Positions 5,107-32,733 of a stretch of 32,733 nucleotides of DNA are shown piece after piece. Each line of letters begins with the position of its first letter. The first letter of the stretch is position 1. Below the pieces are notes generated by a model. It did no database searches. It saw only the letters and a list, made by a program, of their open reading frames with translations, and was not told where the DNA came from. Location of the stretch: positions 1-32,733 of the forward strand of contig JAFAKX010000064.1 of assembly GCA_019234945.1 (NCBI GenBank), read 5' to 3'. The position numbers and the translations under genes are program-made. The DNA comes from Silvibacterium sp. (lineage in GTDB: Bacteria > Acidobacteriota > Terriglobia > Terriglobales > Acidobacteriaceae).

Positions 5107-5121
5107 ACGGAGTTCGTTACG

Positions 5122-7320: not shown

Positions 7321-7335
7321 GCACGGCATTGGGCG

Positions 7336-12267: not shown

Positions 12268-12285
12268 TTGGCCGCCCGATTGCAT
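12268..12285 (+). promoter_or_regulatory. Sigma-54 (-24/-12) promoter
   Basis: TTGGCCGCCCGATTGCAT matches the -24/-12 consensus. It has the invariant GG (12270-12271) and GC (12282-12283) with the required 12-base phasing, a perfect TTGC -12 box, and a T-rich tract after it. The predicted transcription start is near 12295. It is the only clear -24/-12 element found in the intergenic regions, and it lies in a non-coding region opposite a gene for a sigma-54 activator. It would drive the XRE gene and the long run of genes beyond it. The -24 box departs from consensus after TTGGC. Confidence 0.75.
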
Positions 12286-12357
12286 TTTTCCAAGTCAGTA
12301 GTTGCTGTGGCATGGCCCATGAGTAACCACGGACTTCAATTTACAAAGGGTAAGACA

Positions 12358-12618
12358 GTGAGCCTTGGTCGAGAGATATATCCCAATCTCAAGCTACGAA
12401 TCTACACCAGCGGAATCCGGCAGAACCGGCTGGCCAAGATGCTGGGCATCGATGAAGCGCATCTGAGCCGGATCATCAATGGTTTCCGCCGGCCTAGCGG
12501 CGATATTCGCGAGCAGCTTGCAACCATTCTTCAGAGCGATCCTGAGTGGCTCTTTTACAGCATGCAGATCAACGACCCGGCGATGACGACCGAGGTGCAG
12601 TCCCACGCGAAGGTCTAG
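12358..12618 (+). CDS. Small XRE-type helix-turn-helix protein
   Basis: A short DNA-binding protein of about 86 residues. The HTH lies in SGIRQNRLAKMLGIDEAHLSRIINGFRRPS, the Xre/Cro pattern of a scanning helix, turn and recognition helix; IREQLATILQSDPEWLF follows. The GTG at 12358 is preferred because AAAGGG (12345-12350) sits seven bases before it. An in-frame ATG at 12319 (99 residues) is the alternative. A TTG at 12268 is excluded because it is part of the sigma-54 promoter. As first gene of the operon it may give feedback control or mark a second regulatory layer. No enzymatic domain is present. Confidence 0.8.
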   Translation: MSLGREIYPNLKLRIYTSGIRQNRLAKMLGIDEAHLSRIINGFRRPSGDIREQLATILQSDPEWLFYSMQINDPAMTTEVQSHAKV

Positions 12619-12675
12619 CCACTCCAGATTCAGTGCCTGCTTCTCTAGGTGACGAAGTAGTTCCCCGAATTCCGA

Positions 12676-12711
12676 GCTTCACCCCCGGCCTGTGGCCGGC
12701 ACAGGTGAAGC
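12676..12711 (+). promoter_or_regulatory. Two-tier RNA hairpin just upstream of the antiterminator gene
   Basis: Perfect outer arms GCTTCACC (12676-12683) and GGTGAAGC (12704-12711) enclose perfect inner arms CCGGCC (12685-12690) and GGCCGG (12694-12699) around a TGT loop. Only a small asymmetric bulge separates them. No U-run follows, so it is not a typical intrinsic terminator. It sits 16 bases before the ATG of a NusG paralogue. NusG-like factors such as RfaH and LoaP are recruited by hairpins in operon leaders, so this is a candidate recruitment or autoregulatory site. Confidence 0.6.
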
Positions 12712-12727
12712 CTGCAATGGACAAACG

Positions 12728-13384
12728 ATGGAACCCTCCACAACAACCCGGCCTCAATGGTTCGCAGTGCAGACGCGCTATCGCTACGAACAGCGCGTGG
12801 CCAGCGATCTCACCTCAAAAGGTGTGGAGAACTACCTGCCGCTGCTGCGCGAAGTGCACGCCTGGAAGGATCGCAGAAAGTCCCTCGAAGTGCCGGCATT
12901 CGGCGGTTATTTGTTTGTTCGGCTGGACGAGGCGCAGTGCAACCGCGTGCGTGTACTCGAGACCGTCGGAGTGGTCAGATTGCTCGGCCACCACGGTGGG
13001 TTCGACCCGGTACCGGAGCGCGAGATCGAGTCGTTGCGGCTGTCGCTCGGAAGTGGCAAGCCCTGCATGCGTCATCCTTACCTGTCCGCCGGAACGCTGC
13101 TGAGCATCGAGCACGGCCCGCTCAAGGGGCTCGAGGGGCGACTCGTGCGGTCGGCGAACGCGCTGCGCGTGGTGGTGTGTGTTGCGTCAGTTGGCCAGGC
13201 GGTCGCAGTGGAAGTGGCACGCGAAGACGTCGTGGCCATCGGTGAGACGCAAGTAGCCTTCGCAGAGCGGCTGCGCCGTGCCGACTCGCGTGCCTGCGAG
13301 TTGATCGACATGCGAGTAGTTGGTGTGCCGCAGCCCACCGCAGATCGCACACAAATTGCAAGTAGGGGGCTCCCGACGATGTGA
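12728..13384 (+). CDS. NusG-like transcription antiterminator (UpxY/RfaH/LoaP type)
   Basis: A 218-residue NusG paralogue. The N-terminal NGN domain begins WFAVQTRYRYEQRVASDLTSKGVENYLPL and continues through VPAFGGYLFVRLDE to VGVVRLLG. The C-terminal KOW domain is seen in HPYLSAGTLLSIEHGPLKGLEGRLVR. Specialised NusG paralogues bind RNA polymerase and let it read through long capsule or antibiotic operons. Here the gene is second in a run of more than 20 kb, directly after a strong leader hairpin. The ATG at 12728 is chosen because the NGN domain begins soon after; a GTG at 12692 would lie inside the hairpin. A tail of about 50 residues after the KOW domain is unusual and unassigned. Confidence 0.88.
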   Translation: MEPSTTTRPQWFAVQTRYRYEQRVASDLTSKGVENYLPLLREVHAWKDRRKSLEVPAFGGYLFVRLDEAQCNRVRVLETVGVVRLLGHHGGFDPVPEREIESLRLSLGSGKPCMRHPYLSAGTLLSIEHGPLKGLEGRLVRSANALRVVVCVASVGQAVAVEVAREDVVAIGETQVAFAERLRRADSRACELIDMRVVGVPQPTADRTQIASRGLPTM

Positions 13385-13467
13385 ATGGTTTTCCCGAGAA
13401 GGTGCCGATGGCTCCCCCCGGTTTTGAACGATTTTGAACGACTTTGCAGTACTGAGGTTCGCAATTT

Positions 13468-14781
13468 ATGCCTGGTTTTACTTCCAATTCTGTCGCGGTG
13501 CTGGGCGTCCCGTTCGACAACGTGACCATGGATGAAGCTGTGCGCATCATCGAGGACCAAATCGATAGCGGCGGCTACCACCAGGTAGCAACGGCCAACG
13601 TCGACTTCCTGATGCACGCGATCAATGACCCTGAGCTGCAGAATATTCTGTGCTCCTGCTCGCTGGTGGTGCCGGACGGCATGCCCATACTCTGGTCGGC
13701 GCGGCTGATGGGGTCGCGGCTCAAGGAGCGGGTCTGCGGCATCGACCTGGTGCCCCGGCTGGCCGAGCTCTCAGCGCGCCGCGGCTACAGCATTTACCTG
13801 CTCGGCGCAAGCGAAAAAAGCTCCCAGCGGGCAGCCGAAACACTGCAGGAGCGCTATCCGGGCTTGCGCATTGCGGGCCGCTACTCGCCGCCCGTGCGGC
13901 CGCTCGAGCAGATGAACCATGAAGAGATCCTGGAGCGCATTGAGCTGGCGCAGCCGGACATTCTGCTTGTGGCCTTCGGAAATCCCAAGCAGGAGAAATG
14001 GCTCTCGATGCACCGCGACCGGCTGCGTGTGCCGGTCTCGATCGGCATCGGAGGCTCGCTGGACTTGATCGGCGGCAGGCTGGCGCGTGCCCCGCGCTGG
14101 ATGCAGAAAAGCGGGCTCGAGTGGTGCTACCGCGCCGCCCAGGAACCGCGGAGGCTCGCCGGCCGCTACCTGGCTGACGCTCTCACGCTGGGCCGCTACC
14201 TTCCCCAGCAGATGGCGGCAACAGCCTCGCAGCCGAGAGTGCCCGGCCCGTCGCGGATCGTTCCAACGCAGATCGGCGACACGGTGGTGATCGCGATCCA
14301 GGGGAGCCTGACGGGAGAAACCCTCAGCGAGTTCGAGGCTCAGGCGCGCAATGCCGCTGAAGAGGGTAAGCACATCGTGCTCGATATGACCCAGAGCGGC
14401 TACTTTGCGCCGAGCACACTGGGGTCGCTGGTGCAGCTCATGACCTCGATGCAGCAACGGAGACTTCAACTCTGGCTGGCGGGGATGCGGCCTCACCTGG
14501 TTCGGTTGCTGCGCAGCGCGCGGCTGAACAGTTTCTTCAGGATCACCTCGAGCGTTGCCGATGCGGTCTATCGAATCGCCAAGGCCGAGCATGCCACGCT
14601 GGCCCACATGCCTGCCCTGCTGAGCCCGCGTCGCATGGCGGGCCCGGCGGTGCAGTTGCGCTTCGAGGGCATGCAGGATGTCTGCCAGAAGATGGCGGTG
14701 AGCGGCCAGAGCATGCCGCTCGATTTCGGCCAGGGGCTCAATCACGCCTCACGTTACGGATTCAAAGTCTCGGTTGGATAG
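13468..14781 (+). CDS. WecG/TagA/CpsF glycosyltransferase (GT26) fused to a STAS domain
   Basis: A 437-residue fusion. Residues about 1-245 are a GT26 enzyme: VLGVPFDNVTMDEAV, ATANVDFLMHA (conserved Thr), VVPDGMPILWSARLMG (catalytic-type Asp) and VAFGNPKQEKWL (conserved Gln). Such enzymes add the second sugar, often a ManNAc(A)-type residue, to a lipid carrier. Residues about 268-370 form a STAS fold (VVIAIQGSLTG, IVLDMTQSGYFAPSTLGSLV). The usual Asp-Ser of the phosphorylation loop is Ala-Pro, so classic SpoIIAA-like switching is unlikely. A C-terminal tail of about 60 residues has no known domain. ATG at 13468; a GAGG-type site lies 10 bases upstream. The STAS part may scaffold the enzyme or bind a regulatory partner. 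Confidence 0.92.
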   Translation: MPGFTSNSVAVLGVPFDNVTMDEAVRIIEDQIDSGGYHQVATANVDFLMHAINDPELQNILCSCSLVVPDGMPILWSARLMGSRLKERVCGIDLVPRLAELSARRGYSIYLLGASEKSSQRAAETLQERYPGLRIAGRYSPPVRPLEQMNHEEILERIELAQPDILLVAFGNPKQEKWLSMHRDRLRVPVSIGIGGSLDLIGGRLARAPRWMQKSGLEWCYRAAQEPRRLAGRYLADALTLGRYLPQQMAATASQPRVPGPSRIVPTQIGDTVVIAIQGSLTGETLSEFEAQARNAAEEGKHIVLDMTQSGYFAPSTLGSLVQLMTSMQQRRLQLWLAGMRPHLVRLLRSARLNSFFRITSSVADAVYRIAKAEHATLAHMPALLSPRRMAGPAVQLRFEGMQDVCQKMAVSGQSMPLDFGQGLNHASRYGFKVSVG

Positions 14782-14848
14782 AACGATGCCTGCGGCGAAC
14801 GCGTCGCCCTGGAACTGCACGTTGCAGGGCAAACAATTTGATGATTTG

Positions 14849-14870
14849 GGTGGTCTCCCTTTTGGCCACC
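14849..14870 (+). repeat. Intercistronic hairpin between GT26-STAS and GT2 genes
   Basis: In RNA, GGTGGTC (14849-14855) pairs with GGCCACC (14864-14870) with one G-U pair and an 8-base loop. No U-run follows. It lies 34 bases before the next ATG. It may be an RNA processing or stability element within the operon. Confidence 0.35.
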
Positions 14871-14903
14871 ACATAGTTGCCACCACGGAAGGCGCTTGAA
14901 TCG

Positions 14904-16106
14904 ATGACTCACTTTCTCTATCTGGCGCTGGGCCTGATATTCATAGCCGCCACGCTGCCCCTCGTCCTGGAGCTTGCGCTGGTGACGGCCGGCTCGCTGC
15001 TGCCCCGCAGAAAAACTGCCTCTCTCGCGACTGACGAACAGCACGCGGCCGAGTATCCGCTGACGGTGGTGATTCCCGCACACAACGAGGAGCTGCTGGT
15101 CGCCAGATGTGTCAGGAGCCTTCGCGAATCGGCGCCGGACAGCCCTGCCGTCAGAATTCTGGTGGTCGCGCACAATTGCACCGACTCGACAGCCGACGAG
15201 GCGCGCAAGGCCGGCGCCGAAGTTCTCGTCTACAACGATCCTGCGGCGCGCGGCAAAGGCTTCGCGCTGAGCCATGGTTTCAACGAGGCGCTTGCCGGCT
15301 GCTCCCAGGCGGTGCTGGTGATCGATGCCGATTCCGTAGTCTCGACCAATCTGATCCCTGCGGTCCAGGCGGCGCTCGCTGGGGGCGCAGAGGCCGTGCA
15401 GTGCCGGTATGAGATGGAAAGTTCGACCAGGAAGCCGAGCAGCCGGCTGGCGGCGCTGGCGCTCCGCGGATTCAACGTGATTCGCCCGCGGGGTCGCGAG
15501 CGGCTCGGACTCTCGGCGGGCATTTTCGGCAACGGTTTCGCCCTGACGCGCGCCATTCTCTCCGAGGTGCCGTATGGGGCATTTTCGGTGGTCGAAGACC
15601 TCGAATATCACCTCACCCTGGTGATGAAGAAGAAGCAGGTCCGTTTTCTCGAAGGCGCGCTGGTATCAGCCGCCCTTCCGGCCTCGAGCGAGGGCGCGAC
15701 GGTCCAGCGCTCGCGCTGGGAGGGCGGCAGGTTCCACGCCGCCCGGGTGTGGGCGCTGCCTCTTGCCGGGCAGGTGCTGCGCGGCCACCTGCGGCTCGCC
15801 GAGCCGCTGCTGGACGTGGCCTGCCTGCCGATGGCCTACGGCGTCTTCGCGTTGCTACTCGCCGCCTGCATACCGGTTCCGGCGATCCGCTTCTATGCTC
15901 TGGCGTCATTGATGGTTATTGCCGGACACGTGCTGGCCGCCGCGGCTGCGGGGCCGGATTTTTTGAAGACGATGGGGCTGCTCGCCACCGCCCCGATCTA
16001 CATCGTATGGAAGCTTCGCCTGCTGCCCTCGATTGTGCGCGGATCGCGGGGCAAGGCTGCGTGGGTGCGAACCCATCGTGACTCCAACTTTAGGAGTATT
16101 TCCTAA
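14904..16106 (+). CDS. Membrane-bound glycosyltransferase family 2
   Basis: A 400-residue enzyme with an N-terminal membrane helix (FLYLALGLIFIAATLPLVLELAL). The catalytic GT-A domain begins YPLTVVIPAHNEELLVARCV, has ILVVAHNCTDSTAD for nucleotide binding, AVLVIDADSVVS as the DxD site, and SVVEDLEYHLTLVMKK with the ED acid pair. The later SRWEGGRFHAARVW takes the place of the Q/RxxRW motif of processive synthases. At least three C-terminal membrane helices follow. This architecture fits a polyprenyl-linked sugar transferase or polymerising synthase in exopolysaccharide assembly. The ATG at 14904 is used, with GGAAGG 11 bases upstream; a TTG at 14877 is less likely. The stop codon lies inside a TTAGG/CCTAA repeat cluster. 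Confidence 0.87.
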   Translation: MTHFLYLALGLIFIAATLPLVLELALVTAGSLLPRRKTASLATDEQHAAEYPLTVVIPAHNEELLVARCVRSLRESAPDSPAVRILVVAHNCTDSTADEARKAGAEVLVYNDPAARGKGFALSHGFNEALAGCSQAVLVIDADSVVSTNLIPAVQAALAGGAEAVQCRYEMESSTRKPSSRLAALALRGFNVIRPRGRERLGLSAGIFGNGFALTRAILSEVPYGAFSVVEDLEYHLTLVMKKKQVRFLEGALVSAALPASSEGATVQRSRWEGGRFHAARVWALPLAGQVLRGHLRLAEPLLDVACLPMAYGVFALLLAACIPVPAIRFYALASLMVIAGHVLAAAAAGPDFLKTMGLLATAPIYIVWKLRLLPSIVRGSRGKAAWVRTHRDSNFRSIS

Positions 16107-16144
16107 GTTTAGGGAGCGATGCATGATTAGGAACACTAGCCTAA
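16090..16144. promoter_or_regulatory. Cluster of five TTAGG/CCTAA boxes upstream of export gene
   Basis: TTAGG occurs at 16090, 16109 and 16127, and its complement CCTAA at 16102 and 16140, all within 55 bases. They pair into inverted repeats: TTAGGA/TCCTAA with a 5-base spacer, CCTAA/TTAGG with a 2-base spacer, and TTAGG/CCTAA with an 8-base spacer. The cluster overlaps the end of the GT2 gene and lies 57-111 bases before the start of the export gene. It looks like a multi-site operator or an alternative-pairing RNA leader. Confidence 0.5.
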
Positions 16145-16200
16145 GACCACGGGAGTATGAAGGTACCCGGGCCGCTGAGCCAGCGCAGAAAGGCAGCCAC

Positions 16201-17244
16201 ATGAGACCCGCATTTCGGTCAAAACGGACAGCCGGCATCGCGCTGGCGATGAGCCTCGGCGCGCTCTATCTGGTGGCCCAGCAGCCTGCCGGGATTGCGA
16301 CGACACCGGCGCAAAGCGGGGCCCAGTCCCAGGCTCAAGACCAGCCGCCCACGCCGCAATTGAAGCTCAGTCCCGAAAAGCAGCTGCAGAAATTCGAACC
16401 CGCGATCGACGAAGAGTACACGCTGGGCGCGGGAGACGAGATCAGCCTGGATTTTCCCGGGCGTCCGGAGCTTTCGCGTAAATACATCGTGGGACCCGAT
16501 GGCCGCATCACGCTGCCGATCGCTGGACCGCTGATGGTGGCCAACCTTACGCGCGCCCAGGCCTCCAAGGCGATCGTTGATGCGCTCTCCTCGGACTACA
16601 ACAATCTCACCGTCACGGTGAACGTCGACAAGTACGGGTCGAACCGGGTGACGGTGCTCGGCAATGTGAAAACTCCCGGAGTGTTCTACTTCGACAGCAC
16701 GCCAACCCTGCTGGATGCGGTATCGCGGGGCGGTCTGCAATCGACGCCGTCAAACAAAGATGGCCTGCCCAACCGGGTGATGATTTATCGCGGCAATGAC
16801 CAGGTGATGGAGGTCGATCTCCGGGCTCTGCTGCGCGGCGGCAGCGCCATGGCCGATGTCCGTCTGCGCCGCAACGATATCGTCTTCGTTCCCTCGCAGG
16901 CCGATCAGTTCGTTACCGTGCTGGGAGAGGTCAAGACCCCGGGCGCGGTTCCGCTCACATCTGAGTCCACGCTCCCTTCGGTTCTTGCGCAGGCCGGAGG
17001 ACTGGGCGAAGGCGCAGGCCGGTCGCCCAATATCCAGATCATCCAGAAGAGCTCCGGCACCTCGCGGGTTATTCCTTGGAAGCAATTGATGACGCCGAGC
17101 GGCATTGCTGAAGTCAGGCTCCAGCCGGGCGACGTAGTCGTCGTTCCCCAAAGCGGTTTTTACAAGGCAACTTACTTCATCCAAAGGCTCAGTCCCATCA
17201 CCAGCCTGCTGACCGTGGGCCTGCTGGCGGGGGGAATTCCTTAG
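16201..17244 (+). CDS. Wza-type polysaccharide export protein (PES/SLBB domains), outer membrane
   Basis: A 347-residue export protein. The start is the ATG at 16201, with AGAAAGG seven bases upstream. Residues 1-31 are a signal peptide (basic start, then GIALAMSLGALYLVAQ). After a Gln/Pro-rich spacer comes the polysaccharide-export domain (EYTLGAGDEISLDFPGRPEL, VGPDGRITLPIAG), then two SLBB repeats (about 137-220, VTVLGNVKTPGVFYFD; about 235-320, VTVLGEVKTPGAVPLT). The C-terminus is a short hydrophobic segment (SPITSLLTVGLLAGG). Wza-like proteins form the outer-membrane channel for capsule or exopolysaccharide. No Cys is present, so the lipoprotein anchor of classical Wza is missing. The next gene encodes the matching inner-membrane co-polymerase. 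Confidence 0.93.
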   Translation: MRPAFRSKRTAGIALAMSLGALYLVAQQPAGIATTPAQSGAQSQAQDQPPTPQLKLSPEKQLQKFEPAIDEEYTLGAGDEISLDFPGRPELSRKYIVGPDGRITLPIAGPLMVANLTRAQASKAIVDALSSDYNNLTVTVNVDKYGSNRVTVLGNVKTPGVFYFDSTPTLLDAVSRGGLQSTPSNKDGLPNRVMIYRGNDQVMEVDLRALLRGGSAMADVRLRRNDIVFVPSQADQFVTVLGEVKTPGAVPLTSESTLPSVLAQAGGLGEGAGRSPNIQIIQKSSGTSRVIPWKQLMTPSGIAEVRLQPGDVVVVPQSGFYKATYFIQRLSPITSLLTVGLLAGGIP

Positions 17245-17341
17245 TGATTTCTGCGGTAACTAATTTGCCACGTCTCCGGATCGAGAGAGGTTTCAGCTCG
17301 ATTTTGTTCCGGCAGAACAGGACTTCAAGGACCCGGATCAA

Positions 17342-19546
17342 ATGTACATAACTCCACGACAATTCGAACCGCAGCAGCCCACCAAGTTGCCGCCGGCGCC
17401 GCCCCGGCCCTCGACGGCGGGGAACGGGGCCGGGTTCCGGATCAATGTACTCCACAGCCTCAAGATTCACGCCATCACCGCGAGCATTATCGCCATTGTG
17501 ACCTGCGGACTGGGCCTGGCCGTGCTCCTGCGCCATAAGGCCACGTACACCGCAACGGCCATCATCTATGTCTCCCCGAACTTCCCCAAGACGCTGACCG
17601 ATGACCGCGAGCAGCAGTACCAGTACGAGAGTTACATCCAGCAGGAGATGCACACGGTCACGCGCTACGACGTCATGGCCGATTCCATCAAGAAGCTGCC
17701 GGCCGGAACCTGGCGGTTCCCCGGCGAAACCGAACAGTCTGCGGTCGCGCGCCTGCAGAGCTCGCTCGATATCGTGCGCATCGGCGCCACCTATCAGGTG
17801 GGCATCACCCTGATGGGCAGAAGTCCCAACAATCTTGCTGAGATCGCAAACGCCGTAGCCAACACCTACGTCGAAAAGGCCAAGGACGAGGAGTTCTACG
17901 GGCGCGATCAGCGCCTGGAAACGCTGCGCCAGGAGCGCGCACGCCTTCAGTCCGATCTCGATTCATCGCTCCAGGAGCAGGCCCAGATCGCGCGCTCCCT
18001 CGGTGTGGCGATCGTGAACGGAGAGGGCGCGAATCCTTTCGACAGCCAGCTGGATAAGATGCGGAGCGATCTTGCCACGGCTCATGGGCAGCGCATCCAG
18101 GCCGAAGCACAGCTTTCTTCGCTCGAAACCGGAGATCCGTCGGCGCCGAACTCCGCCCTGAGTGCAGCGGCCGATGAGATTATCGCCACCGATCCGCAGC
18201 TCAATGCTCTCAAAACCTCGCTCGGCCAGAAGCGCAGCGAGCTGCTTGGAACCCTTGCCGGGCTTACGCCGAACAACCCACTTCGGAAGCAGACCGAGGA
18301 GCAGCTGGCTGAAACCGAGGCGGCGCTGCAGAAGATGCAGTCCAGCCTGAGGGCCAAAGCCGCCTCGCGCCTGGAACAAAAACTCCACTCCGAGGTCAAT
18401 CGCTCGGCCACCATCGAATCCAGGCTGCTCCACGAGCTGCAGTCGCAGACCACGAGCGCCACCAGCGCAACACCGAAGATCCAGCGTTCGGAGGAGATCA
18501 AGGCCGATATCGCACGGCTGCAGGCGCGTTACAACCTGATTGACGAGCGCATCGGCAACCTCGAGCTCGAGAGCAGCTCGCCGGGCTCTGTCCACATCTT
18601 CCAGCCGGCGTTGCCTCCGCTCGGTCCGGAGCCGAGCAAGGCTCATAAATACCTGTTGCTGCTGTTCCCGATCTCGATCCTGTTCGGCGTGGTTGCTGCG
18701 GTGCTCTTTGACCTGCTCGATCCGCGCCTTTATACGGGCGCCGACGTTGAGGCCATGATGGGCTTCGCTCCTGTCGGTGTTCTGTTTGATGACCGCGAAG
18801 TTACGCAACTGGTCTATGACGAGTGCGCCCTGCGCATGGCGGCCGGCATCGATCACGCGGCTCATTCTGCGGGCGTGCGTACCTTCGTCTTGACGGCCGT
18901 GACCGCGGGCGCCGGCACTACGAGCATCGTGAGCCAGTTGGGCAGCACGCTGGCCAAGCTCGGTCGGAAGACGCTGACCGTCGACGCCTCTGGCAACAGC
19001 AACCCGGTCGCTTATGCCACGGTGGACCTTCCGGACCCGGCCAGATCGAATTTCGCGGGTGAGATGACCGGCACCGAGCTTCAGTCCGCGGTTGTAACCC
19101 AGCCGCTCACCTCGAAGTTGACGCCGCTTGCCACCAGCTTCATGGCCAAGGCCTTTCAGGAGCTGACCAACGAGTACGACATTGTGCTCATCGACGCAGC
19201 CCCGATCCTTGCCTCGGCCGAAACCGAGTACCTTGCCCGCTTCGCCGACGTCACCATCCTGGTCGGCGAGTCGGCCCGGACGAAGAAGGGGGAACTGAGG
19301 CGCGCGGCGCGGCTCCTCGAGCGGCTCAACGTCAGCGGCGTCGCTGTCATCATCAACAAGGTGGGCCTGCTGCGCGCCGAAAAAACGCTCAGGCGCGATA
19401 TCGACGAGTTCGAGGCCCGCGTCAACAAGATGAACCTGCGGTGGCACCCGAAGTATCACCGCACAGAAGCCACGCCTTTTACTCCCTTCGTCACGAAAGA
19501 CAACGTGGTGGACGCGGAAGAGGTTCCCGCCGCACGGGAAGCATGA
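17342..19546 (+). CDS. Wzc/GumC-type polysaccharide co-polymerase with degenerate tyrosine-kinase-like domain
   Basis: A 734-residue inner-membrane protein. After a Pro-rich start there is a Wzz domain with TM1 (ITASIIAIVTCGLGLAVLL), long periplasmic coiled coils (about 170-430), and TM2 (KYLLLLFPISILFGVVAAVLF) preceded by a Pro-rich segment. The cytosolic part (about 500-700) has the BY-kinase/MinD fold, but the P-loop reads G523-A-G-T-T-S528 with Thr where Lys is needed. Walker A' continues with Ser after Asp548, while Walker B VLIDAAP (Asp618) is kept. The C-terminal tail lacks a tyrosine cluster. It should still set polymer length and export with the Wza protein, but ATP-dependent tyrosine kinase activity is doubtful. 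It ends 27 bases before the PKS/NRPS gene. Confidence 0.92.
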   Translation: MYITPRQFEPQQPTKLPPAPPRPSTAGNGAGFRINVLHSLKIHAITASIIAIVTCGLGLAVLLRHKATYTATAIIYVSPNFPKTLTDDREQQYQYESYIQQEMHTVTRYDVMADSIKKLPAGTWRFPGETEQSAVARLQSSLDIVRIGATYQVGITLMGRSPNNLAEIANAVANTYVEKAKDEEFYGRDQRLETLRQERARLQSDLDSSLQEQAQIARSLGVAIVNGEGANPFDSQLDKMRSDLATAHGQRIQAEAQLSSLETGDPSAPNSALSAAADEIIATDPQLNALKTSLGQKRSELLGTLAGLTPNNPLRKQTEEQLAETEAALQKMQSSLRAKAASRLEQKLHSEVNRSATIESRLLHELQSQTTSATSATPKIQRSEEIKADIARLQARYNLIDERIGNLELESSSPGSVHIFQPALPPLGPEPSKAHKYLLLLFPISILFGVVAAVLFDLLDPRLYTGADVEAMMGFAPVGVLFDDREVTQLVYDECALRMAAGIDHAAHSAGVRTFVLTAVTAGAGTTSIVSQLGSTLAKLGRKTLTVDASGNSNPVAYATVDLPDPARSNFAGEMTGTELQSAVVTQPLTSKLTPLATSFMAKAFQELTNEYDIVLIDAAPILASAETEYLARFADVTILVGESARTKKGELRRAARLLERLNVSGVAVIINKVGLLRAEKTLRRDIDEFEARVNKMNLRWHPKYHRTEATPFTPFVTKDNVVDAEEVPAAREA

Positions 19547-19573
19547 AATCCTGCAGCTCAACACCAGTTATGC

Positions 19574-25500: not shown

Positions 25501-28048
25501 GGAGTTTCTCAAGGCTGTCAGGAAGGCCGGCGCGAAGCAGGGCAGCACCCTCTTCGCCACGCTGCTGGCGGGCTTCTCGCAGCTTATCCACCGGCTCTCG
25601 CAGCAGGAGGACGTGGTCATAGGCATTCCCATGGCCGGCCAGTCGCTGCTCGAAAACGGCGGATCGCTTGTCGGCCATTGCGTCAACTTCCTGCCTATCC
25701 GCAGCCGCTTCGACGCGACTCAGCCGCTTGCCGACTACTTCAAGCAGGCGCGCAAGAAGCTGCTCGACGCGCAGGATCACCAGAGCTACACCTACGGAAC
25801 GCTGCTGCGCAAGCTGAAGATCGAGCGCGACTCTTCGCGGCTGCCGCTCGTAGAGGTGCAGTTCAACGTGGAGACGGTCGGCGCTGGCCTCAAATTCGAC
25901 GGCCTCAGCGTGGATCTTGCCGCCAACGGCAAGACCCATGTCAACATGGACCTTTTCTTCAATTTCATCGATCGCGGCAACGAGCTGTGGCTGGACGTGG
26001 ACTACAACACCGGCCTTTTCGACGAAGCGACAATCGAGCGCTGGCACGGGCATCTTGAGGCGATCCTGCAGGCCTTTATTGATGACGCTGCGCAGCCTGC
26101 GGCCCATGTCTCACTGCTCACAGCAGCGCAGAAGCGGCAGCTTCTGTTTGACTGGAACCAGACCACTGCGGAGTATCCGCGGACGAGCTCGATTCATCGC
26201 GTCTTCGAACAGCAGGCACGCAGTACTCCGGACGGGATCGCCGTCACATTCGGCAAACAGTCGCTGACCTATACCGAGCTGAACGAGAAGGCCAACCAGC
26301 TCGCGCAGTTTCTTGAAAAATCCGGGGTCAGGGCGGGCATGCGTGTCGCCATCTGCCTCGACCGCTCGCTCGAAGTGATTGTTGGCCTGTTGGCGATCCT
26401 GAAGGCCGGGGCGGCGTATGTTCCAATCGACGCGAGCTATCCGGCATCGCGGCTCAGCTTCCTCATCGAGGACTCGCAGGCCCATTCCCTGCTGACCAAT
26501 CGCTCGATTGCCGCAGACCTGCCCCAGCTTGCCACCAACGTCATCTGCCTTGATTCCGACTGGCCGGCGATTGCTCTCGAACCCGGGATTAACCTCGCCA
26601 ACGATGGCGGCCCGGAAGAGCTGGCTTACGTCATGTACACCTCGGGCTCGACGGGTAACCCAAAGGGCGTGCTGGTGCCGCATCGGGCCGTCCTGCGGCT
26701 GGTGAAGAACAATTCTTTCGCCAGCTTTTCGCCCGATGAAGTCTTCCTGCAGCTTGCTCCCCTGTCGTTCGATGCGGCCACGTTTGAGATCTGGGGCGCG
26801 CTGCTGAACGGAGGCCGCCTGGTGGTTGCTCCAGCAGGTCGCGTAACGCCGGAGGACATCGGCGCCATCGTCGTCGAAGACAGGATCACCACCATGTGGC
26901 TCACGGCGGCGCTCTTCCACCTCATGGTTACCAACCATCTCGAGTCGCTGCGCCTGCTGCGGCAACTTCTTGCCGGGGGGGACGTCCTCTCGGTCACGCA
27001 CGTGCGCCGCGTGCTCGAAGAGCTGCCGCATCTGCGCCTGATCAACGGCTACGGGCCGACAGAGAACACGACCTTCACCTGCTGCCACACCATCACGCTC
27101 GACAGCCTGACCTCGGGAACGGTACCCATTGGCCGGCCGATCAACAACACCCGCATCTACATTGTGGACGCGGCGATGCAGCCGGTTCCGGTGGGCGTAA
27201 CGGGCGAGCTGTTCGCGGGGGGCGACGGGGTCTCGCTCGGCTACCTCAACGCGCCCGAGCTGACGGCCGAGAAGTTCATCACCCACACCTTCACGCCCGG
27301 ACTGACCGAGCGCCTCTACCGCACCGGCGATCTGGCCCGCTATCGGACCGACGGTACCGTCGAGTTCCTGGGCCGCGCCGATACGCAAGTGAAGGTGCGC
27401 GGATACCGGATCGAGCTGGCCGAGATCGAGTATGCGCTCGAGCGTTCGCCGCTGGTCCGCGGCGCCGTGGCCTGCGTGCGCACCGACTGGAAGACCGAGC
27501 ACGACGCTCCCGGAGACAAACGGCTGGCGGCGTATGTCATTCCTGAGCGGCCCGGCGACACTGCCGGCCTGATCGCCGATCTTCGTACCTGGCTCAAGAC
27601 GCAGCTGCCCGAATACATGCAGCCGGCGGCCATCATGGCCGTTGAGAGCTTCCCACGCACGGTTAACGGCAAGGTGGACCGCCGCGCGTTGCCGGCGCCG
27701 CAGCCCGAGCAACTCATGCGCGAGCGCTCCATCGTCTACCCGCGCAATACTCAGGAAGAAAAGCTTGCCCGGATTTGGGCTGATGTATTAAATGTGAAGG
27801 AGGTTAGCGTCGAGGATAGTATTTTTGAGTTAGGCGGGGATTCCCTTATGATCTTCCGGATCAATACACTGGCTAACCAGGCCGGAATCAGGATCAACGC
27901 CCGTCACATCTTTCAGTACAAGACGATTGCGGCAATCTGCGCACAGATTCAGGAAACAGGTGACGACAGCCCCGCCGAATCGAACGGTAGAACGATCCAG
28001 CCAGTACCCCGCTCGCTGCATCGCAGGCCGCGAACGATATTGCAATAG
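19574..28048 (+). CDS. Hybrid PKS-aminotransferase-NRPS megasynthase (T-KS-AT-ACP-AMT-C-A-T)
   Basis: A 2824-residue assembly-line enzyme. Domains: carrier T1 (about 31-105, Ser61 in FFESGGTSLL); ketosynthase (about 128-555, Cys304, His440, His480 all present); acyltransferase (about 645-960, Ser751 in GHSVGE and HAFH at 847-850, predicting malonyl-CoA); ACP (about 1055-1135, Ser1091 in LGFDSL); Ala/Pro linker; PLP class-III aminotransferase (about 1280-1710, DEVVTGFR, Lys1554); condensation domain (about 1745-2180, HH at 1880-1881 in HHIIFDGWS); adenylation (about 2205-2720, YTSGSTGNPKG, NGKVDR with Lys2700); carrier T (about 2725-2805, Ser2757). The order matches mycosubtilin/iturin-type beta-amino acyl formation but lacks an acyl-ligase loading domain. 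The A-domain pocket suggests valine. ATG at 19574, 27 bases after the Wzc-like gene, so probably co-transcribed. Confidence 0.96.
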   Translation: MPKNINNPLGGNDPSSTAGSRALAHDTGEALAQSVTRLWKEILGLPRTGLDDNFFESGGTSLLATVLISKINQALREAGRDELPIAAIFEHPTLRAMTTLVGGVTLPAAATAAATAAEKPAHSLPSSAIAIIGMTGRFPGANSVEQFWTNLAAGVESITFFDREQLDGFERELAGRTESYVASRPILADADKFDAAFFGIYPKEAAQMDPQHRVFLECCWEVLERAGYDPAHTTQSVGVFAGCSMNTYFMRNLATGREFLEDFTGAYQVGNYVTMMGNDKDFLPTRVSYKLNLRGPSMTVQSACSTALVAVCQGAQSLLTGSCDMALAGAVSITVPQHRGYIPQEGGLASLDGHCRPFDRNASGTVFGSGSAVVLLKRLENAVADGDQVLAVIRGFALNNDGSVKVGYTAPSVDGQAQVIQRAQKMAGVPAESITYIEAHGTGTPLGDPIEIAGLNKAFRTSTSAANFCSIGTAKANVGHLDVAAGGVGLIKTVLQIQNRTIPGLLHFEEPNPHLELDNSPFYFTRRLEPWQSNGSPLRAGVSAFGVGGTNAHVVVEEPPQVEPSDAGREQQVLVWSAKTPGALTNLTQSLSEHFAQHPEQNFADAAWTLETGRSRHHFRRALVAGSTQEAAAILTAGDSAAVIKQDKPFENPSVVFCFPGQGVQSISMGRRLYESEPVFREALTRCSELLAPALGASLLDVIYPAEATPEAQTRLNQTLYAQPAIFSFEYALAQLWLSWGIRPAAMVGHSVGEYVAACLAGVFPLEDGLRLIAARCRLMQDLPRGSMLAVRKDEATVASLIPDDLDLAAVNSPQLCVVSGPDAAIDAFIQKLDAEKIVTRRLATSHAFHSRMVEPALAPFAEVVRTIKFSEPSIPYVSTLTGSWATLAEVSKADYWTSQLRHTVRFADAVRELLKTPERIMLEVGPAETLVPLIRQTAGSGSGPGSMVALSSLGSARDNTPEDKVVLSALGALWTLGASPDWAAFHAGYRRRRVLLPTYPFERQRHWVEAPARVTTAQVPQLPAIQAISVPATVTNTLPASPLEVLSMPTSAAQSETMLTELKTLIADLSGTDLGDAEAEASFLELGFDSLFLTQLTQAIQSKFRVKLTFRQIMESYPTLGALAAHLDATVAPELRSAPASPATPAQAVPSVPANTAAPAPVLLTAPFAASPAAAAGSYEALFASQMQALTSLFQQQMAILQGHAAPVVPSVPAVATNIAALAQQIAVSVTNNAPAAPALTQTAAAPAPVAAAKPAKSAYTPFKPLQRGETGGLNPVQEKYLKALMERYSQRTPGSKRFTQKHRGVFADGRVVSGFNAQTKEVVYPLVVNKASGAYLWDNDGNRYVDILNGFGAILYGHSPEFITDAVRRQLDLGFAIGPQTELTGTCSELVRELTGMQRVTFCNTGSEAVMGAMRLARTVTGRNLVVLFTGDYHGSFDEVLVKAVGNRRSMPVAPGIPRESVANILVLDYGTPESLEVIRQRADEIAAVLVEPVQSRHPELRPAEFLREVRKITEQSGSCLIFDEVVTGFRTHAGGMQAVYGIRADLATYGKVVAGGLPVGVIAGSPAYMDALDGGQWQYGDDSFPQVGVTFYAGTFMRHPLALAAVRASLEHIKESGPALQTDLAAKTASLVADLNAMFREFSYPTTIETFSSWFFMSAPTEPKLARLLYYHLREKGIHIQEGFPCFLTTAHTDGDLDFVRDAFRSSLKEMVAGQAIGHADDLTRAAVPEKAEPAAAPEQHIDRDIAITEPQREILFGTQLGDEANCSFNEGTSLRLNGQLDEAAFVRSLEQIVARHEALRAVIRVDGDTVHISAEIPLPLEREDLSELGPDSRDARLKELVHAQASTPFDLQHGPLFRTRLVKFSPTEHVFIFTAHHIIFDGWSTNVLYSELAELYNSAVAQKPESLPAPLAFSKYAADENARHASEENSAVEAYWLNEFSTLPSVLQLPTDRPRPAMRGNAGATRRFVFPPEFLKAVRKAGAKQGSTLFATLLAGFSQLIHRLSQQEDVVIGIPMAGQSLLENGGSLVGHCVNFLPIRSRFDATQPLADYFKQARKKLLDAQDHQSYTYGTLLRKLKIERDSSRLPLVEVQFNVETVGAGLKFDGLSVDLAANGKTHVNMDLFFNFIDRGNELWLDVDYNTGLFDEATIERWHGHLEAILQAFIDDAAQPAAHVSLLTAAQKRQLLFDWNQTTAEYPRTSSIHRVFEQQARSTPDGIAVTFGKQSLTYTELNEKANQLAQFLEKSGVRAGMRVAICLDRSLEVIVGLLAILKAGAAYVPIDASYPASRLSFLIEDSQAHSLLTNRSIAADLPQLATNVICLDSDWPAIALEPGINLANDGGPEELAYVMYTSGSTGNPKGVLVPHRAVLRLVKNNSFASFSPDEVFLQLAPLSFDAATFEIWGALLNGGRLVVAPAGRVTPEDIGAIVVEDRITTMWLTAALFHLMVTNHLESLRLLRQLLAGGDVLSVTHVRRVLEELPHLRLINGYGPTENTTFTCCHTITLDSLTSGTVPIGRPINNTRIYIVDAAMQPVPVGVTGELFAGGDGVSLGYLNAPELTAEKFITHTFTPGLTERLYRTGDLARYRTDGTVEFLGRADTQVKVRGYRIELAEIEYALERSPLVRGAVACVRTDWKTEHDAPGDKRLAAYVIPERPGDTAGLIADLRTWLKTQLPEYMQPAAIMAVESFPRTVNGKVDRRALPAPQPEQLMRERSIVYPRNTQEEKLARIWADVLNVKEVSVEDSIFELGGDSLMIFRINTLANQAGIRINARHIFQYKTIAAICAQIQETGDDSPAESNGRTIQPVPRSLHRRPRTILQ

Positions 28049-28090
28049 CACGAAGGATCAATTGCAGTAGGCGGTGGTATATTGCAGCAT
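28039..28090 (+). repeat. Three spaced ATTGCA repeats between the NRPS genes
   Basis: ATTGCAATAG (28039-28048), ATTGCAGTAG (28061-28070) and ATTGCAGCAT (28081-28090) recur at 22- and 20-base steps, about two helical turns each. The first overlaps the stop of the hybrid gene. A GGCGGTGGTAT sequence (28070-28080) between copies two and three resembles the RfaH ops element. They could be a regulator site or an antiterminator pause site. Confidence 0.45.
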
Positions 28091-28111
28091 ATTTGCCCTG
28101 GTTCGAATCGT

Positions 28112-31100
28112 ATGCTTCATCCGTCATTGGCTGGTACAGTACAAAACGTGAACCCTGATGACCCGCCCCCCGTGGACACCGCGGAGTCCCTGGATTCATC
28201 TGCCGCCGGAGTGTACGTCTTCCCGGCGGGGCTCGAGCAGACCCGTTACTGGGTGCTCGACCAGCTCGCAGGCGCCTCGACAGCCTCGAACATGGCTGTG
28301 GCCTTCCGCCTCGAAGGGCCTATCCAGGACAACGCGGCCGAGCAGGCCGTGCCGGCGCTGGTGCTTCGCCACGAAGCTTTGCGCACCACTTTCCGCATGG
28401 TTGACGGCGCTCTGTCGCAGGTCATCTCGGAGGAGGCGACCTACGATTTTTCGGTCTCGGATCTCCGCACGCTGCCCGAGACGGACCGCCGCGACCGGGC
28501 CGAGGACCTCATCCACGAGCACAGCCGCATACACATCGATCTGGCCAACGGGCCGGCGCTCTACGTTCGGTTGATACACGTTACTGACGCCGATCACTTT
28601 CTTGCCTTCACGGTCCATCACATCGCCTGCGACGGGTGGTCGAACGGCGTCCTGATCCGCGATTTCGCCGTGATCTACGCTGCGGCGGTCGAAAGCCGCG
28701 AGCCCTCGCTGCCGGAGCTGCCGTTTCAGTTCGCTGACTTTACCGTGTGGCAGCAGTCCTGGCTCGATAGCGATGCCGCGCAGGCCGCGCTTGCCTTCTG
28801 GAGGGAGCATATCCGGCGGGAGATGCCGGCCATCGACCTGCCGACGGATCATCCGCGGACGGCGCAGAAGAGCGCGCCGGGCAACATCGAAGGGCGCCTG
28901 CTGTCGCCCGGCCTCGCCGCGCGTTTGAAGGCCTACTGCCGCCGGCACGACGCCACCATGCACCAGGTGCTGCTCGCCGCCTTCGAGGCGCTGATCTCGC
29001 GCTACACCGGACAGACGGAGTTTCTCCTCGGCTCGACCATCGCCAACCGTACGCAGGCGGGCATGGAGAACGTTGTCGGCCGCTTTGCGCATCCCCAGGT
29101 GATTCTCGCCGATGTCCGCGGCAATCCAAGCTACCGCGAGCTGCTGGACCGAGTGGTCGATTGGAGCGCTAAGTCGTACGCCCATCAGGACCTCCCGTTT
29201 TCGCGGCTCGCCGAGCAGTTCCAGCTCGACCAGGCGGGTGCGACCTCGCAGTTTCTGCAGGTCTACTTCGTCTACCAGAAGGCGTTCATGCAGCCGCAGA
29301 CGGCCGGCGAGCTGCAAATCATCCCGCGGCCGTCGGTCAGCGGCGGCGTGAACTTCGACATGCTGGTCAGCGTCGTCGAGCGCAACGAAGGCCCGCGCCT
29401 GCAGATCGAATACGACACGCGGCTCTTCGATCACGAGCGTGTGCTTCGTCTGCTCGACCAGTACACGCGTGTGCTTGAAGCCGTGATGGACGACGACACG
29501 CTGCTCGTCTCCGCGCTGCCGCTTGTGTCTGACGAAGAGCGGTCAGCGCTGGTGGCCGCTGCAACACCCGGCTTGCCGGCGCCGACAACCGCTGCAGCTG
29601 AGCGTCCGGTTTTTTCGTCGATAGCTCAGCTCTTCGACTTCCACGCTGCTGAGCTCGGGGGCTCGCCTGCGTTGATCGTTGGAGAGTCGCGGACAAGCTG
29701 GAAGGACCTGCGCGACCGAAGCACGAAGCTTGCACATGCGATGCAGCATCGCGGGCTCCGCGCTGGCCAAACCGTCGCAGTGCGCATCGAGCCCAGTGCG
29801 GATTCGGCTGCCGCTGTGCTGGCCGCTATGCGCCTCGGGCTGGCAATTCTGCCGGTGCCTGCGAGCGTGAGCACGGCGGAGTGGCGGAAGATTCAGGCGC
29901 AGCTGAAGCCCGCGCTCTGCCTCGCCGACGCTGGCTTCGCGGCGAAGGCTTCGGCGATTACCGCGTTTGTTCAGCTTGAAAGCGGATCGCGCGACGCCAG
30001 CGCCGAAATCTCCGGCGTGCCAGACGTTGCCGGTTCCGACACCGCATGGATCGGCGCCGCAATTCGTCACGATGGAAGCTACGAATGGATGCCGGTCTCG
30101 CACGCCGCTACCCTGAGAAGCATAACGAGCGCAGCGCAGGCGCTTGCAATCCAGGCAGGCGACGCCGTATTTGTGTCGGCTTCGAGCGACACTACGCCGC
30201 TTGCCCAGGTAGACGCGTGGACAGACCTGCTGCTGCCTCTGCTGTCCGGAGCGACCATCGTCTACCCCGAGACAGAAAAGCCGGAGCAGTTCCGCACGGT
30301 CATCGACCGAGAGCAGGCTTCGTTTGCCTTCGGTGCACCCGCCGAATGGTCGCGCATGCTCGAAGGCTGGGCCGGAGACCGCAGAGTGAGTCTCGTCGCC
30401 CGGGGATCGCGCCTGTCGCCTCCTGTCTCCGAGAGGCTCGCAAAATCCAGCTTCCGCGCATGGTCGCTGGTCTCCTCTGAGCGAACCGCTGGCCCATTTG
30501 CTTTGGCTCGGGTCGACCCGGCGCATCTCGACTCTCTGCTCGCCCCGCTGCCAGGAGACACGCTGCGCATCGTCGACGAATCGGGCGCGCCTGTGCCGTT
30601 TGGCGTTCGCGGCGAACTTGTAGTCGAGCGGGATCATCTGCAACTCAAGTCCGGCTTCACGGCGCGCTACTCGCCGGCAAAGGGATTCGAATTCGCCGGG
30701 CGGCTTGATCGCTCCGTAAGCCTGCATGGCCATCGTCTCCACCTCGAAGAACTGGAGGATCTGCTGCTCGCGGAGCCGACAGTTGCCGCCGCCGATGCCG
30801 CAATCGTGCCGGGCACGGCAGGTAAGCCGGTCCTGGCCGCCTGGGTCGCGGGCCACAATGGCCAGTTGCCTCCGCTAGCAGCCGTCCGGGCGCACCTTAA
30901 ATCCTCGGCGCCGCCGCACCTTGCCTCGGCCGAGGTCATGGCAATTGCCGCTATTCCCCGCCGCATTGACGGCTCGGCTGACCTTGCTGCACTGCCTGTT
31001 CCGGGATCGGTTCCGCTGGAGGCGCCCGCCGACGCGGATTACGTTCCGCCGCGCGATGACCTCGAAAAGAACCTGGTCTCCATCTGGGAGTCGGTGCTTG

Positions 31101-32113
31101 GGGTCCGGCCCATCGGTATCCGCACGAACTTTTTCACCCTCGGCGGGTATTCGCTGATGATCGTGCGGCTCTTTGCCAATATCAATCGCAGCCTGTCGCT
31201 CTCGCTGCCCATCACCACGATCTTCAACGCGCCGACGATCGAGCAACTCGCGGACATCGTTCGCGGGCGCACGATCTATTCGCCGCTCGTACCCGTGCAG
31301 CCGAAAGGCTCGAAGCCGCCATTCTTCCTCGTCCATTCCTACCTGCTTTACGGAGGACTGCCGAAGGTGCTCGGCGAGAACCAGCCCTTCTACGGCCTGC
31401 GCGAGCTGAACCAGTCGATGTCGATGCCGGAGCGCGTGGCGTCTTACGCGAAGGAAATTCGCGCTGTCCAGCCAAAGGGGCCCTATTTCATCGGCGGATG
31501 GTGCGCCGCCGGCCCGCTGGCCGTCGAGACCGCAAGACTGCTTATCGATGCTGGCGAAGAGGTCGGTATGATCGTTCTCTTCGACTCATGGCGGCCCGGG
31601 TATGCCGCAGAACTGGCGCAGGCGCAGAAGCACATGCCCGAAATGGCGCTCCACGCCCGGCTGCACCGGAAATTGCGCTTTCACCGCGGCAAACTCCGGC
31701 CGCTCTCGCCGGGCGGCAGGGTGAAATACGCGTGGAATGCAGTGAAGCAGAAGGCGCTTTCGATGCGGTCGCGCCTGTACCTGAAAAACTGGGCCATGGC
31801 GCAGCGGCTTTTCCAGCTACTCGGACTTCCGCTGCCGGCGTTCATGCACAACGTCAGTCTGCAGACGTTGGAGGCTGTTCGCTCATACAACGGCAAGCCG
31901 CTTCCGGGCCGCATCACGCTCGTCCGTGCAACAGACGCCCCATATATTCCGGGCGCAGAGCCCGACTGCGGCTGGGGAGCCTTGGCCATCAACGGAATCG
32001 ATGTGCACTGGGCTCCAGGCAATCACGAAACGATGTTCATTGAGCCGAACCTGAGCGTGGTCGGCGACATCGTGCGCGAGAGCTTCAGGCAAGCTCAGGA
32101 GACGCGCGTCTGA
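28112..32113 (+). CDS. NRPS module with vestigial adenylation domain and cysteine-type thioesterase (C-A*-T-TE)
   Basis: About 1333 residues from the ATG at 28112 (a TTG at 28082 and a GTG at 28148 are alternatives). Condensation domain (about 20-450) with intact HHIACDGWS (169 onward), YAHQDLPFSRL and DFTVWQQSWL. Residues about 490-970 match an adenylation fold, but the core motifs are lost: no YTSGSTGxPKG, no YGPTE, no YRTGD, and DGSADL where NGKxDR with catalytic Lys is expected. Carrier T: Ser1014 in LGGYSL. Thioesterase (about 1060-1330): GGWCAAG has Cys1131 as nucleophile, with Asp1158 and His1305 (GNHETMF) completing the triad. It would accept the beta-amino-acyl-aminoacyl chain, perhaps condense a residue loaded in trans, and release the product. 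Confidence 0.93.
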   Translation: MLHPSLAGTVQNVNPDDPPPVDTAESLDSSAAGVYVFPAGLEQTRYWVLDQLAGASTASNMAVAFRLEGPIQDNAAEQAVPALVLRHEALRTTFRMVDGALSQVISEEATYDFSVSDLRTLPETDRRDRAEDLIHEHSRIHIDLANGPALYVRLIHVTDADHFLAFTVHHIACDGWSNGVLIRDFAVIYAAAVESREPSLPELPFQFADFTVWQQSWLDSDAAQAALAFWREHIRREMPAIDLPTDHPRTAQKSAPGNIEGRLLSPGLAARLKAYCRRHDATMHQVLLAAFEALISRYTGQTEFLLGSTIANRTQAGMENVVGRFAHPQVILADVRGNPSYRELLDRVVDWSAKSYAHQDLPFSRLAEQFQLDQAGATSQFLQVYFVYQKAFMQPQTAGELQIIPRPSVSGGVNFDMLVSVVERNEGPRLQIEYDTRLFDHERVLRLLDQYTRVLEAVMDDDTLLVSALPLVSDEERSALVAAATPGLPAPTTAAAERPVFSSIAQLFDFHAAELGGSPALIVGESRTSWKDLRDRSTKLAHAMQHRGLRAGQTVAVRIEPSADSAAAVLAAMRLGLAILPVPASVSTAEWRKIQAQLKPALCLADAGFAAKASAITAFVQLESGSRDASAEISGVPDVAGSDTAWIGAAIRHDGSYEWMPVSHAATLRSITSAAQALAIQAGDAVFVSASSDTTPLAQVDAWTDLLLPLLSGATIVYPETEKPEQFRTVIDREQASFAFGAPAEWSRMLEGWAGDRRVSLVARGSRLSPPVSERLAKSSFRAWSLVSSERTAGPFALARVDPAHLDSLLAPLPGDTLRIVDESGAPVPFGVRGELVVERDHLQLKSGFTARYSPAKGFEFAGRLDRSVSLHGHRLHLEELEDLLLAEPTVAAADAAIVPGTAGKPVLAAWVAGHNGQLPPLAAVRAHLKSSAPPHLASAEVMAIAAIPRRIDGSADLAALPVPGSVPLEAPADADYVPPRDDLEKNLVSIWESVLGVRPIGIRTNFFTLGGYSLMIVRLFANINRSLSLSLPITTIFNAPTIEQLADIVRGRTIYSPLVPVQPKGSKPPFFLVHSYLLYGGLPKVLGENQPFYGLRELNQSMSMPERVASYAKEIRAVQPKGPYFIGGWCAAGPLAVETARLLIDAGEEVGMIVLFDSWRPGYAAELAQAQKHMPEMALHARLHRKLRFHRGKLRPLSPGGRVKYAWNAVKQKALSMRSRLYLKNWAMAQRLFQLLGLPLPAFMHNVSLQTLEAVRSYNGKPLPGRITLVRATDAPYIPGAEPDCGWGALAINGIDVHWAPGNHETMFIEPNLSVVGDIVRESFRQAQETRV
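32097..32112 (+). promoter_or_regulatory. Strong ribosome site placed before a CTG codon overlapping the NRPS stop
   Basis: AGGAG (32097-32101) is followed after eight bases by CTG (32110-32112), which overlaps the TGA stop (32111-32113) of the NRPS gene as CTGA. The phosphopantetheinyl transferase frame has no ATG or GTG upstream of its conserved N-terminus. This decides a likely non-standard CTG start with translational coupling. ATT at 32113 is the only close alternative. Confidence 0.55.
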
Positions 32114-32733
32114 TTCGGTCGCACCCCGAGATCGGCCGCCGGCTCACGAGCGGAGAAGTCCATATCTGGAGGTTGAAGCCCGAGCCGGACGCTGAACTCG
32201 AGCCCTATTCACGCCTGCTCGGCGCAGAAGAGCGCGATCGCGCCGCGCGATTTCGCTTTCCGCATCTCACGCATCGTTTCATCGTCGATCACGGGCGGGT
32301 GCGCCTGATTCTTGGCGCCTGTTCCGAAATTGCTCCCGAAGACATCGCCTTCGCCGTAAACGAATACGGCAAGCCCGAGCTTGCCAATCCTGGGGCGACG
32401 GGGCCGGGTCGGCTGCGGTTCAACCTGTCGCACACCGAAGGGCTCACGCTGCTCGCGCTCTGTCTCGATGCCGATCTGGGCGTAGATGTAGAAGCGGTCC
32501 GTGCTATGAACGATCTCGAGCTGATCGCCGAATCGCACTTTTCGTCCCGCGAGATTGCTGCGCTTCGAGCTGTCGACCCTGTCGATCGGGAGCGGGCGTT
32601 CTTTCGCTGCTGGACCCGCAAGGAGGCTTTCCTCAAAGCTCACGGGCGCGGCCTGTCAATCCCGCTCGATTCCTTTGCCGTGAGCCTCGCCGCCGAAGCC
32701 TTACCGGCTCTGCTCGAATGCCGCTGGGACCCC
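32110..32733 (+). CDS. 4'-phosphopantetheinyl transferase (Sfp type), 3' end cut by window
   Basis: The enzyme moves 4'-phosphopantetheine from CoA to the carrier-domain serines of PKS/NRPS proteins, here most likely the four carriers encoded directly upstream. The visible 208 residues include SGEVHIWRLKPEP near the N-terminus, the KPELANP segment, FNLSHTEGLTLLAL, the magnesium-binding GVDVE (Asp126, Glu128), and FFRCWTRKEAFLKAHGRGL (Trp168, Lys171, Glu172, Lys176). This is the Sfp-type pattern, and the protein probably lacks only its last 20-50 residues. The frame opens after a stop at 32041 and no ATG/GTG precedes the conserved region. The start is set at CTG 32110, overlapping the NRPS stop and preceded by AGGAG. 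A TTG at 32173 would delete conserved sequence. The family is certain, the start is not. Confidence 0.88.
   Translation, partial: MIRSHPEIGRRLTSGEVHIWRLKPEPDAELEPYSRLLGAEERDRAARFRFPHLTHRFIVDHGRVRLILGACSEIAPEDIAFAVNEYGKPELANPGATGPGRLRFNLSHTEGLTLLALCLDADLGVDVEAVRAMNDLELIAESHFSSREIAALRAVDPVDRERAFFRCWTRKEAFLKAHGRGLSIPLDSFAVSLAAEALPALLECRWDP

Follow-up and report, generated by a model that had tools for sequence, protein, structure and literature searches.

A PKS-NRPS assembly line joined to an exopolysaccharide export operon in Acidobacteriaceae

Why would genes for polysaccharide export share an operon with a hybrid polyketide synthase-nonribosomal peptide synthetase (PKS-NRPS)? This question is raised by a 32,733-nucleotide stretch of DNA from Silvibacterium sp., in the following called the window, which is the entire contig C37 of genome G000 (72% complete). 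The initial annotation had described regulatory, exopolysaccharide (EPS) export and assembly-line genes as one apparent operon, and had proposed an iturin-type, lipopeptide-like product connected with the EPS matrix. Our analysis demonstrates that the joining of the assembly line with the EPS operon is real and conserved, and a coupling of synthase and EPS export is well supported. The lipopeptide-like product is not, as described below.

The assembly line lies in a conserved EPS operon

We searched 200 genomes of the same family with the ACP-AMT-C part of the megasynthase. Strong matches (>590 bits) were obtained in 27 of them, while the next score was 207 bits, and gene neighbourhoods were read for 22 of these 27 genomes (G186, G087, G016, G184 and G153 were left out). 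Eleven loci from five genera, including the window, form a close group with megasynthase identities to the window of 52-79%. The gene for the Wzc-like co-polymerase is located directly upstream of the megasynthase gene in all ten close loci that could be assessed, across the five genera, so the claimed gene linkage is conserved. In the eleventh, G142, the locus is split over two contigs, with Wzc at the end of one and the megasynthase at the end of the other. The gap between both genes measures 13 to 142 bases in eight close loci and about 530 bases in G099; in the window it is 27 bases, as originally stated.

Across the loci with adjacent genes, Wzc identity to the window falls to about 40%, and the Wzc and megasynthase identities of ten genomes co-vary (Mantel r 0.96, p 0.0001, uncorrected for species relatedness). 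This type of Wzc was found in 13 of the 200 genomes (12 over 500 bits and the contig-cut G142). Twelve of the 13, i.e. the eleven close loci and G169, carry a PKS-AMT-NRPS in the same locus (presence/absence association over 200 genomes, p 2e-16, relatedness likewise uncorrected). The synthase of G169 belongs to a distant lineage, has its own A-T gene and lies ∼11 kb from Wzc, with the EPS genes running the opposite way. Together with the close group, it ties two synthase lineages to the same type of EPS locus.

The window contains the following features. All genes named in the initial annotation, from the XRE-type regulator to the phosphopantetheinyl transferase (PPTase), were recovered as open reading frames (ORFs) with Pfam matches, weak ones in the case of the Wzc-like gene, in the same direction and behind the sigma-54 site.

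9809..10360, minus strand: hexapeptide-repeat acetyltransferase (Pfam Hexapep), a divergent conserved neighbour
10464..11897, minus strand: sigma-54-dependent activator (Pfam Sigma54_activat and HTH_8), divergent position conserved
12269..12284, plus strand: sigma-54-like promoter TGGCCGCCCGATTGCA (TGGC-N7-TTGC)
12319..12618, plus strand: XRE-type regulator, start revised (Pfam HTH_3)
12692..13384, plus strand: putative NusG-like specialised antiterminator (Pfam NusG, 67 bits)
13468..14781, plus strand: GT26 glycosyltransferase (WecG/TagA) fused to STAS (Pfam)
14877..16106, plus strand: GT2 glycosyltransferase (Pfam)
16033..17244, plus strand: Wza-like polysaccharide export protein (Pfam Poly_export and SLBB)
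17342..19546, plus strand: Wzc-like co-polymerase with degenerate kinase domain (NCBIfam, CapB alignment)
19574..28048, plus strand: PKS-NRPS megasynthase T-KS-AT-ACP-AMT-C-A-T, 2824 aa (Pfam, motifs, A-domain residues)
28082..32113, plus strand: NRPS C-(degenerate A)-T-TE whose TE nucleophile motif has a Cys (Pfam, motifs, PDB alignments)
32110..32733, plus strand: Sfp/HetI-like PPTase, cut by the contig end (Pfam ACPS, translation)

The order kept among the close loci is sigma-54 activator (minus strand), XRE, GT26-STAS, GT2, Wza, Wzc, megasynthase and NRPS-TE. Exceptions are G099, which has no match to GT26-STAS or the activator and a Wzy-like gene in place, G035, where GT26-STAS and GT2 are separated by a Wzy-like gene, and the loci of G197 and G142, which are cut by contig ends. 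The activator and the hexapeptide acetyltransferase, both divergent, are part of the same conserved block; a homologue of the acetyltransferase occupies the same position in seven of the ten other close loci and in G183, a genome whose EPS locus lacks the synthase. A NusG-like ORF clustering with that of the window was found in five other close loci, and none was recognised in the remaining ones.

Downstream of the assembly line, a PPTase gene follows in the window, G175, G117, G160, G141, G066, G142 and G099. It comes after an acyltransferase-3 gene in G035; none was found at the close locus of G102, and the contig of G197 stops before that position. Wzx and Wzy were not seen in the window, which ends within the PPTase gene. 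Both directly follow the PPTase gene in G160 and G142, and in G141 they lie within 5 kb, after a cupin-like gene (labelled by reading the sequence). G066 has a cupin-like gene downstream and then Wzx on the opposite strand, an acyltransferase-3 gene comes after NRPS-TE in G102 and G035, and a weakly PMT-like gene was found downstream in G175 and G117.

Three gene starts were reconsidered. An XRE start near 12319 is more likely than TTG 12268, since the sigma-54-like site from 12269 would sit inside the longer ORF; the shorter ORF keeps its HTH_3 match. The true start of the Wza-like gene is probably further downstream than 16033. No stop codon interrupts the PPTase frame as far back as 32110, but neither ATG, GTG nor TTG is present at the stop. 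The stop/start overlap first described would therefore require an unusual start codon and is unproven.

A sigma-54-like promoter and a putative antiterminator

Upstream of XRE, the motif TGGC-N7-TTGC lies at the corresponding position in 10 of the 11 EPS loci tested (including G183, excluding G099), compared to a background in these regions of 0.042 per kb per strand. The site of G066 deviates by one base. A consensus scan of the 27-base gap between Wzc and megasynthase (19546-19574) gave neither a promoter-like nor a terminator-like match. Together with the linkage in five genera, this upholds that part of the earlier proposal which tied the megasynthase to EPS export, but not the lipopeptide nature of its product.

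The NusG N-terminal domain is present in the NusG-like gene product, and the position of the gene at the operon head suggests antitermination of the operon. According to PMC7819879, the NusG paralogues TaA and LoaP act on PKS operons and UpxY acts on capsule operons, and these long PKS or capsule operons likewise have a NusG-domain gene at their head. The operon described here differs from these in that both kinds of target are present in one operon.

The synthase is predicted to make a short beta-amino peptide

In iturin and mycosubtilin lines, a PKS-AMT-NRPS with the order KS-AT-ACP-AMT-C makes a beta-amino acyl unit. The window megasynthase shares this core with intact motifs, but has no acyl-ligase loading domain: Pfam and motif searches found only a T domain, and no AMP-binding domain, before the KS. 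Also in contrast to these lines, the window locus comprises no more than two NRPS modules, and the A domain of the second is degenerate, leaving two C domains and one working A domain instead of the many modules of a cyclic lipopeptide. Finally, distant relatives of the window synthase begin with an amino-acid A-T gene, which was present upstream in eight of ten distant loci. The lipopeptide reading was therefore rejected on the evidence of the loading and A domains. Together with the A-domain findings below, this makes a fatty-acid starter less likely.

Wherever the contigs extend far enough, the KS, AT, ACP, AMT, C, A and T motifs of the megasynthase are intact across the close group; the G099 protein lacks the N-terminal T domain. 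The AT domain carries HAFH, which we take to be malonyl-specific. All eleven close loci show the A-domain code DAFWLGGTF, presumably a valine-like code. In the second protein, motifs A3 and A10 of the A domain are lost in ten of ten close loci. The C motif of this protein is retained in nine of these (G099 has SHxxxDG), and the T serine and the Cys in the TE nucleophile motif are found in all ten; the protein was also aligned to solved enzymes.

In the ten distant loci, only G140 has an intact A domain in the last protein, that of G039 being a 450-residue fragment; the last protein of Rhizobium lusitanum is C-T-TE without an A domain. We read the codes of the eight upstream A-T genes as Thr-like (five), Val-like (two) and other (one), and the internal A domains as carrying a Gly-like code in nine of ten cases. 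A tree was calculated from 104 A domains, excluding rows of ≤400 residues (e.g., G197), G047, and L078 and L080, which are copies of G102 and G169, respectively. The A domain of the close group falls together with 23 of 34 loading A domains and is separated from 49 of 60 internal A domains (SH-aLRT 98%, midpoint rooting), and the Thr-type loading domains fall on the opposite side of the tree. This topology points to a window lineage that retained its loading carrier, lost the loading A domain and took up a Val-type A domain in the internal module. In that case, several carriers may share one A domain.

In G066 (99% complete), the megasynthase contains the sole adenylation domain over the TIGR01733 cut-off. 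The same holds for the less complete genomes G000, G160, G142 and G099, and further such domains were found in G102, G197, G117, G175, G035 and G141. Loading of the first carrier by another amino-acid A domain is therefore not a general solution, since G066 has no second one above this cut-off; a ligase for a substrate other than an amino acid may also load it.

Beside its EPS locus, G102 encodes a further, stand-alone A-T-TE protein (L154:225-3617), in which the C domain is a remnant and the A domain looks functional, and G197 has an ORF of the same kind in the same place. A protein of this type may load carriers in trans.

The Wzc-like protein is probably kinase-dead

The Wzc-like protein gave weak Pfam matches and matched the NCBIfam BY-kinase models below their cut-offs, but it matches CapB/Wzc chains in PDB. 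In the alignment, the Walker-A lysine of CapB (GAGKS) is replaced in the window protein (GAGTTS), and it is absent from 12 of 12 aligned homologues. We conclude from the alignment that this protein is probably a kinase-dead co-polymerase. With Wzx/Wzy-dependent EPS loci, the operon shares an outer membrane polysaccharide export (OPX) protein, a Wzc-like co-polymerase, GT26 and GT2 glycosyltransferases and, downstream in several relatives, Wzx/Wzy. It differs from such loci by the Wzc without a Walker-A lysine and by the PKS-NRPS line inside the operon.

Other partner genes

A PAF-AH/PETase-like hydrolase (GxSxG, membrane-like N-terminal segments) was found in 13 of the 22 loci, in both the close and the distant group, and additionally when the flank of G035 was extended. 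Two copies lie on other contigs of the window genome. The hydrolase is missing in five of six tested genomes without the synthase, the sixth (G183) having a 28% match, and none was found in G142 and G099, which do have the synthase. Cupin-8-like genes recur among the loci, the one scanned being just under the Pfam cut-off. Six loci contain a large downstream protein (G102 and homologues in five others); the G102 protein (L044:10986-14729, 1247 residues) carries C-terminal repeats of the chitobiase type and gave a lectin match that stayed below the cut-off. In the part of the clusters that was scanned, no nameable cluster common to three or more loci resembles a small-molecule transporter. At 602-8640 of the window, further glycosyltransferase and sugar-epimerase genes adjoin the gene for ribosomal protein L9, and this left half may be a second or extended glycan locus.

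The synthase family beyond the Acidobacteria

A wider scan of genome contigs, of which the best 80 loci were kept, gave members from many phyla; 50 of these loci were chosen by us and examined for neighbours. Named hosts of the family are Acidicapsa dinghuensis, Rhizobium, Paraburkholderia tropica and Dyella jiangningensis. At least 18 of the 50 loci have a Poly_export (Wza-family) gene within 30 kb of the synthase, compared to 1.7 expected at random. Pfam matches among the neighbours include polysaccharide pyruvyl transferase in Rhizobium lusitanum, pyruvyl transferase in Nitratireductor, GT4 glycosyltransferase and acyltransferase-3 in Paraburkholderia, Wzz/Wzc in Haloferula, polysaccharide deacetylase and Wzy in Dyella, and an acyltransferase-3/SGNH protein in Nevskia. 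The genes surrounding the related synthase of Rhizobium lusitanum (L082:1248-22665) encode, besides the pyruvyl transferase, GH16, a DegT aminotransferase and a GINT1-type protein.

Discussion

We favour, tentatively and with slightly more doubt than confidence, one functional locus for an assembly-line-modified exopolysaccharide, in which a short beta-amino peptide decorates or accompanies the polymer. The sigma-54 activator would switch on the long operon, and the NusG paralogue would probably sustain transcription along it. GT26, GT2, Wza and Wzc, together with the Wzx/Wzy and further glycosyltransferases encoded downstream in relatives, would build and export the polysaccharide. The PPTase would arm the carriers. 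The starter on the N-terminal T domain of the megasynthase is most likely an amino acid loaded in trans, to which the megasynthase would add one malonyl unit and convert the beta-keto group to a beta-amine. This intermediate would be joined to one amino acid selected by the only working A domain, before the second protein hands the chain through its C and T domains and the Cys-type thioesterase releases it. The resulting amino-rich short acyl peptide would decorate the polysaccharide or be deposited alongside; its attachment to the polymer, like the starter, the product and the antitermination, is our inference.

Several results weigh against a peptide-modified polysaccharide. No transferase joining peptide to sugar was identified in the loci. 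G183 contains the same sigma-54/EPS locus without a synthase (L064:7466-16685), so the polymer can be made without the synthase and the assembly line behaves like an optional cassette. Most distant members of the synthase family in the Acidobacteriaceae do not adjoin Wza/Wzc, and the co-variation of Wzc and megasynthase lacks a correction for species relatedness. Across phyla, the synthases lie close to Poly_export genes (at least 18 of 50) not significantly more often than do other NRPS loci in these genomes (at least 4 of 22 within 30 kb; controls drawn from 41 of the best 80 loci; Fisher p 0.17, related species being counted repeatedly), and in Reyranella no polysaccharide gene was present among five ORFs tested.

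Alternatively, the product could be a free, diffusible peptide-polyketide, e.g., an aminostatine-like inhibitor, a signal or a metal binder, and the operon would then reflect only the co-regulation of two products that both serve biofilm life. We regard this as possible, if rather doubtful. The release machinery is complete with a TE, the EPS genes stand alone in G183, related synthases occur away from EPS genes, and NusG paralogues are known to drive PKS and capsule operons separately (PMC7819879). But the synthase sits inside the EPS operon and is followed in several relatives by Wzx/Wzy or other sugar genes, two synthase lineages are linked to the same EPS locus type, and no recurrent small-molecule exporter was recognised in the clusters examined.

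A product that anchors or primes the polysaccharide as a special lipid-like molecule or peptide, in a role like that of the RkpA/WcbR PKSs, is unlikely. Those capsule PKSs have reducing domains for an acyl chain. The window synthase, in contrast, is a hybrid PKS-NRPS whose aminotransferase and peptide modules indicate an amino-rich peptide, and a megasynthase without Pfam matches to the reducing domains KR, DH and ER is not expected to yield an alkyl chain, which counts against this role. In its favour, the rkp and wcb clusters, according to PMC3908369, likewise have a PKS gene, of type I, combined with genes for capsule synthesis and export. A chance neighbourhood of two unrelated clusters, for which only the EPS genes without synthase in G183 speak, is highly improbable and was rejected by the synteny, given the adjacency in ten of ten loci from five genera, down to the lowest Wzc identity, and the presence/absence association, relatedness uncorrected.

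Returning to the peptide-modified polysaccharide, no NRPS modules inside a Wza/Wzc locus were described in the literature covered (titles and abstract openings, subscription papers mostly lying outside). We consider, as a wider proposal that is conceivable although on balance improbable, that these loci represent a widespread undescribed class of surface polysaccharides decorated with beta-amino acyl peptides from assembly lines. The family would serve such loci in Acidobacteriota, several classes of Proteobacteria, Verrucomicrobiota and Planctomycetota, and in the window lineage one A domain would load several carriers while the kinase-dead Wzc aids export. If this is true, nonribosomal assembly lines would tailor polysaccharides in addition to producing free small molecules. 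Through its amine-bearing groups, bacterial slime in soil would bind minerals, water and metals differently, and a cluster family that genome mining would class as orphan natural products would gain a function.

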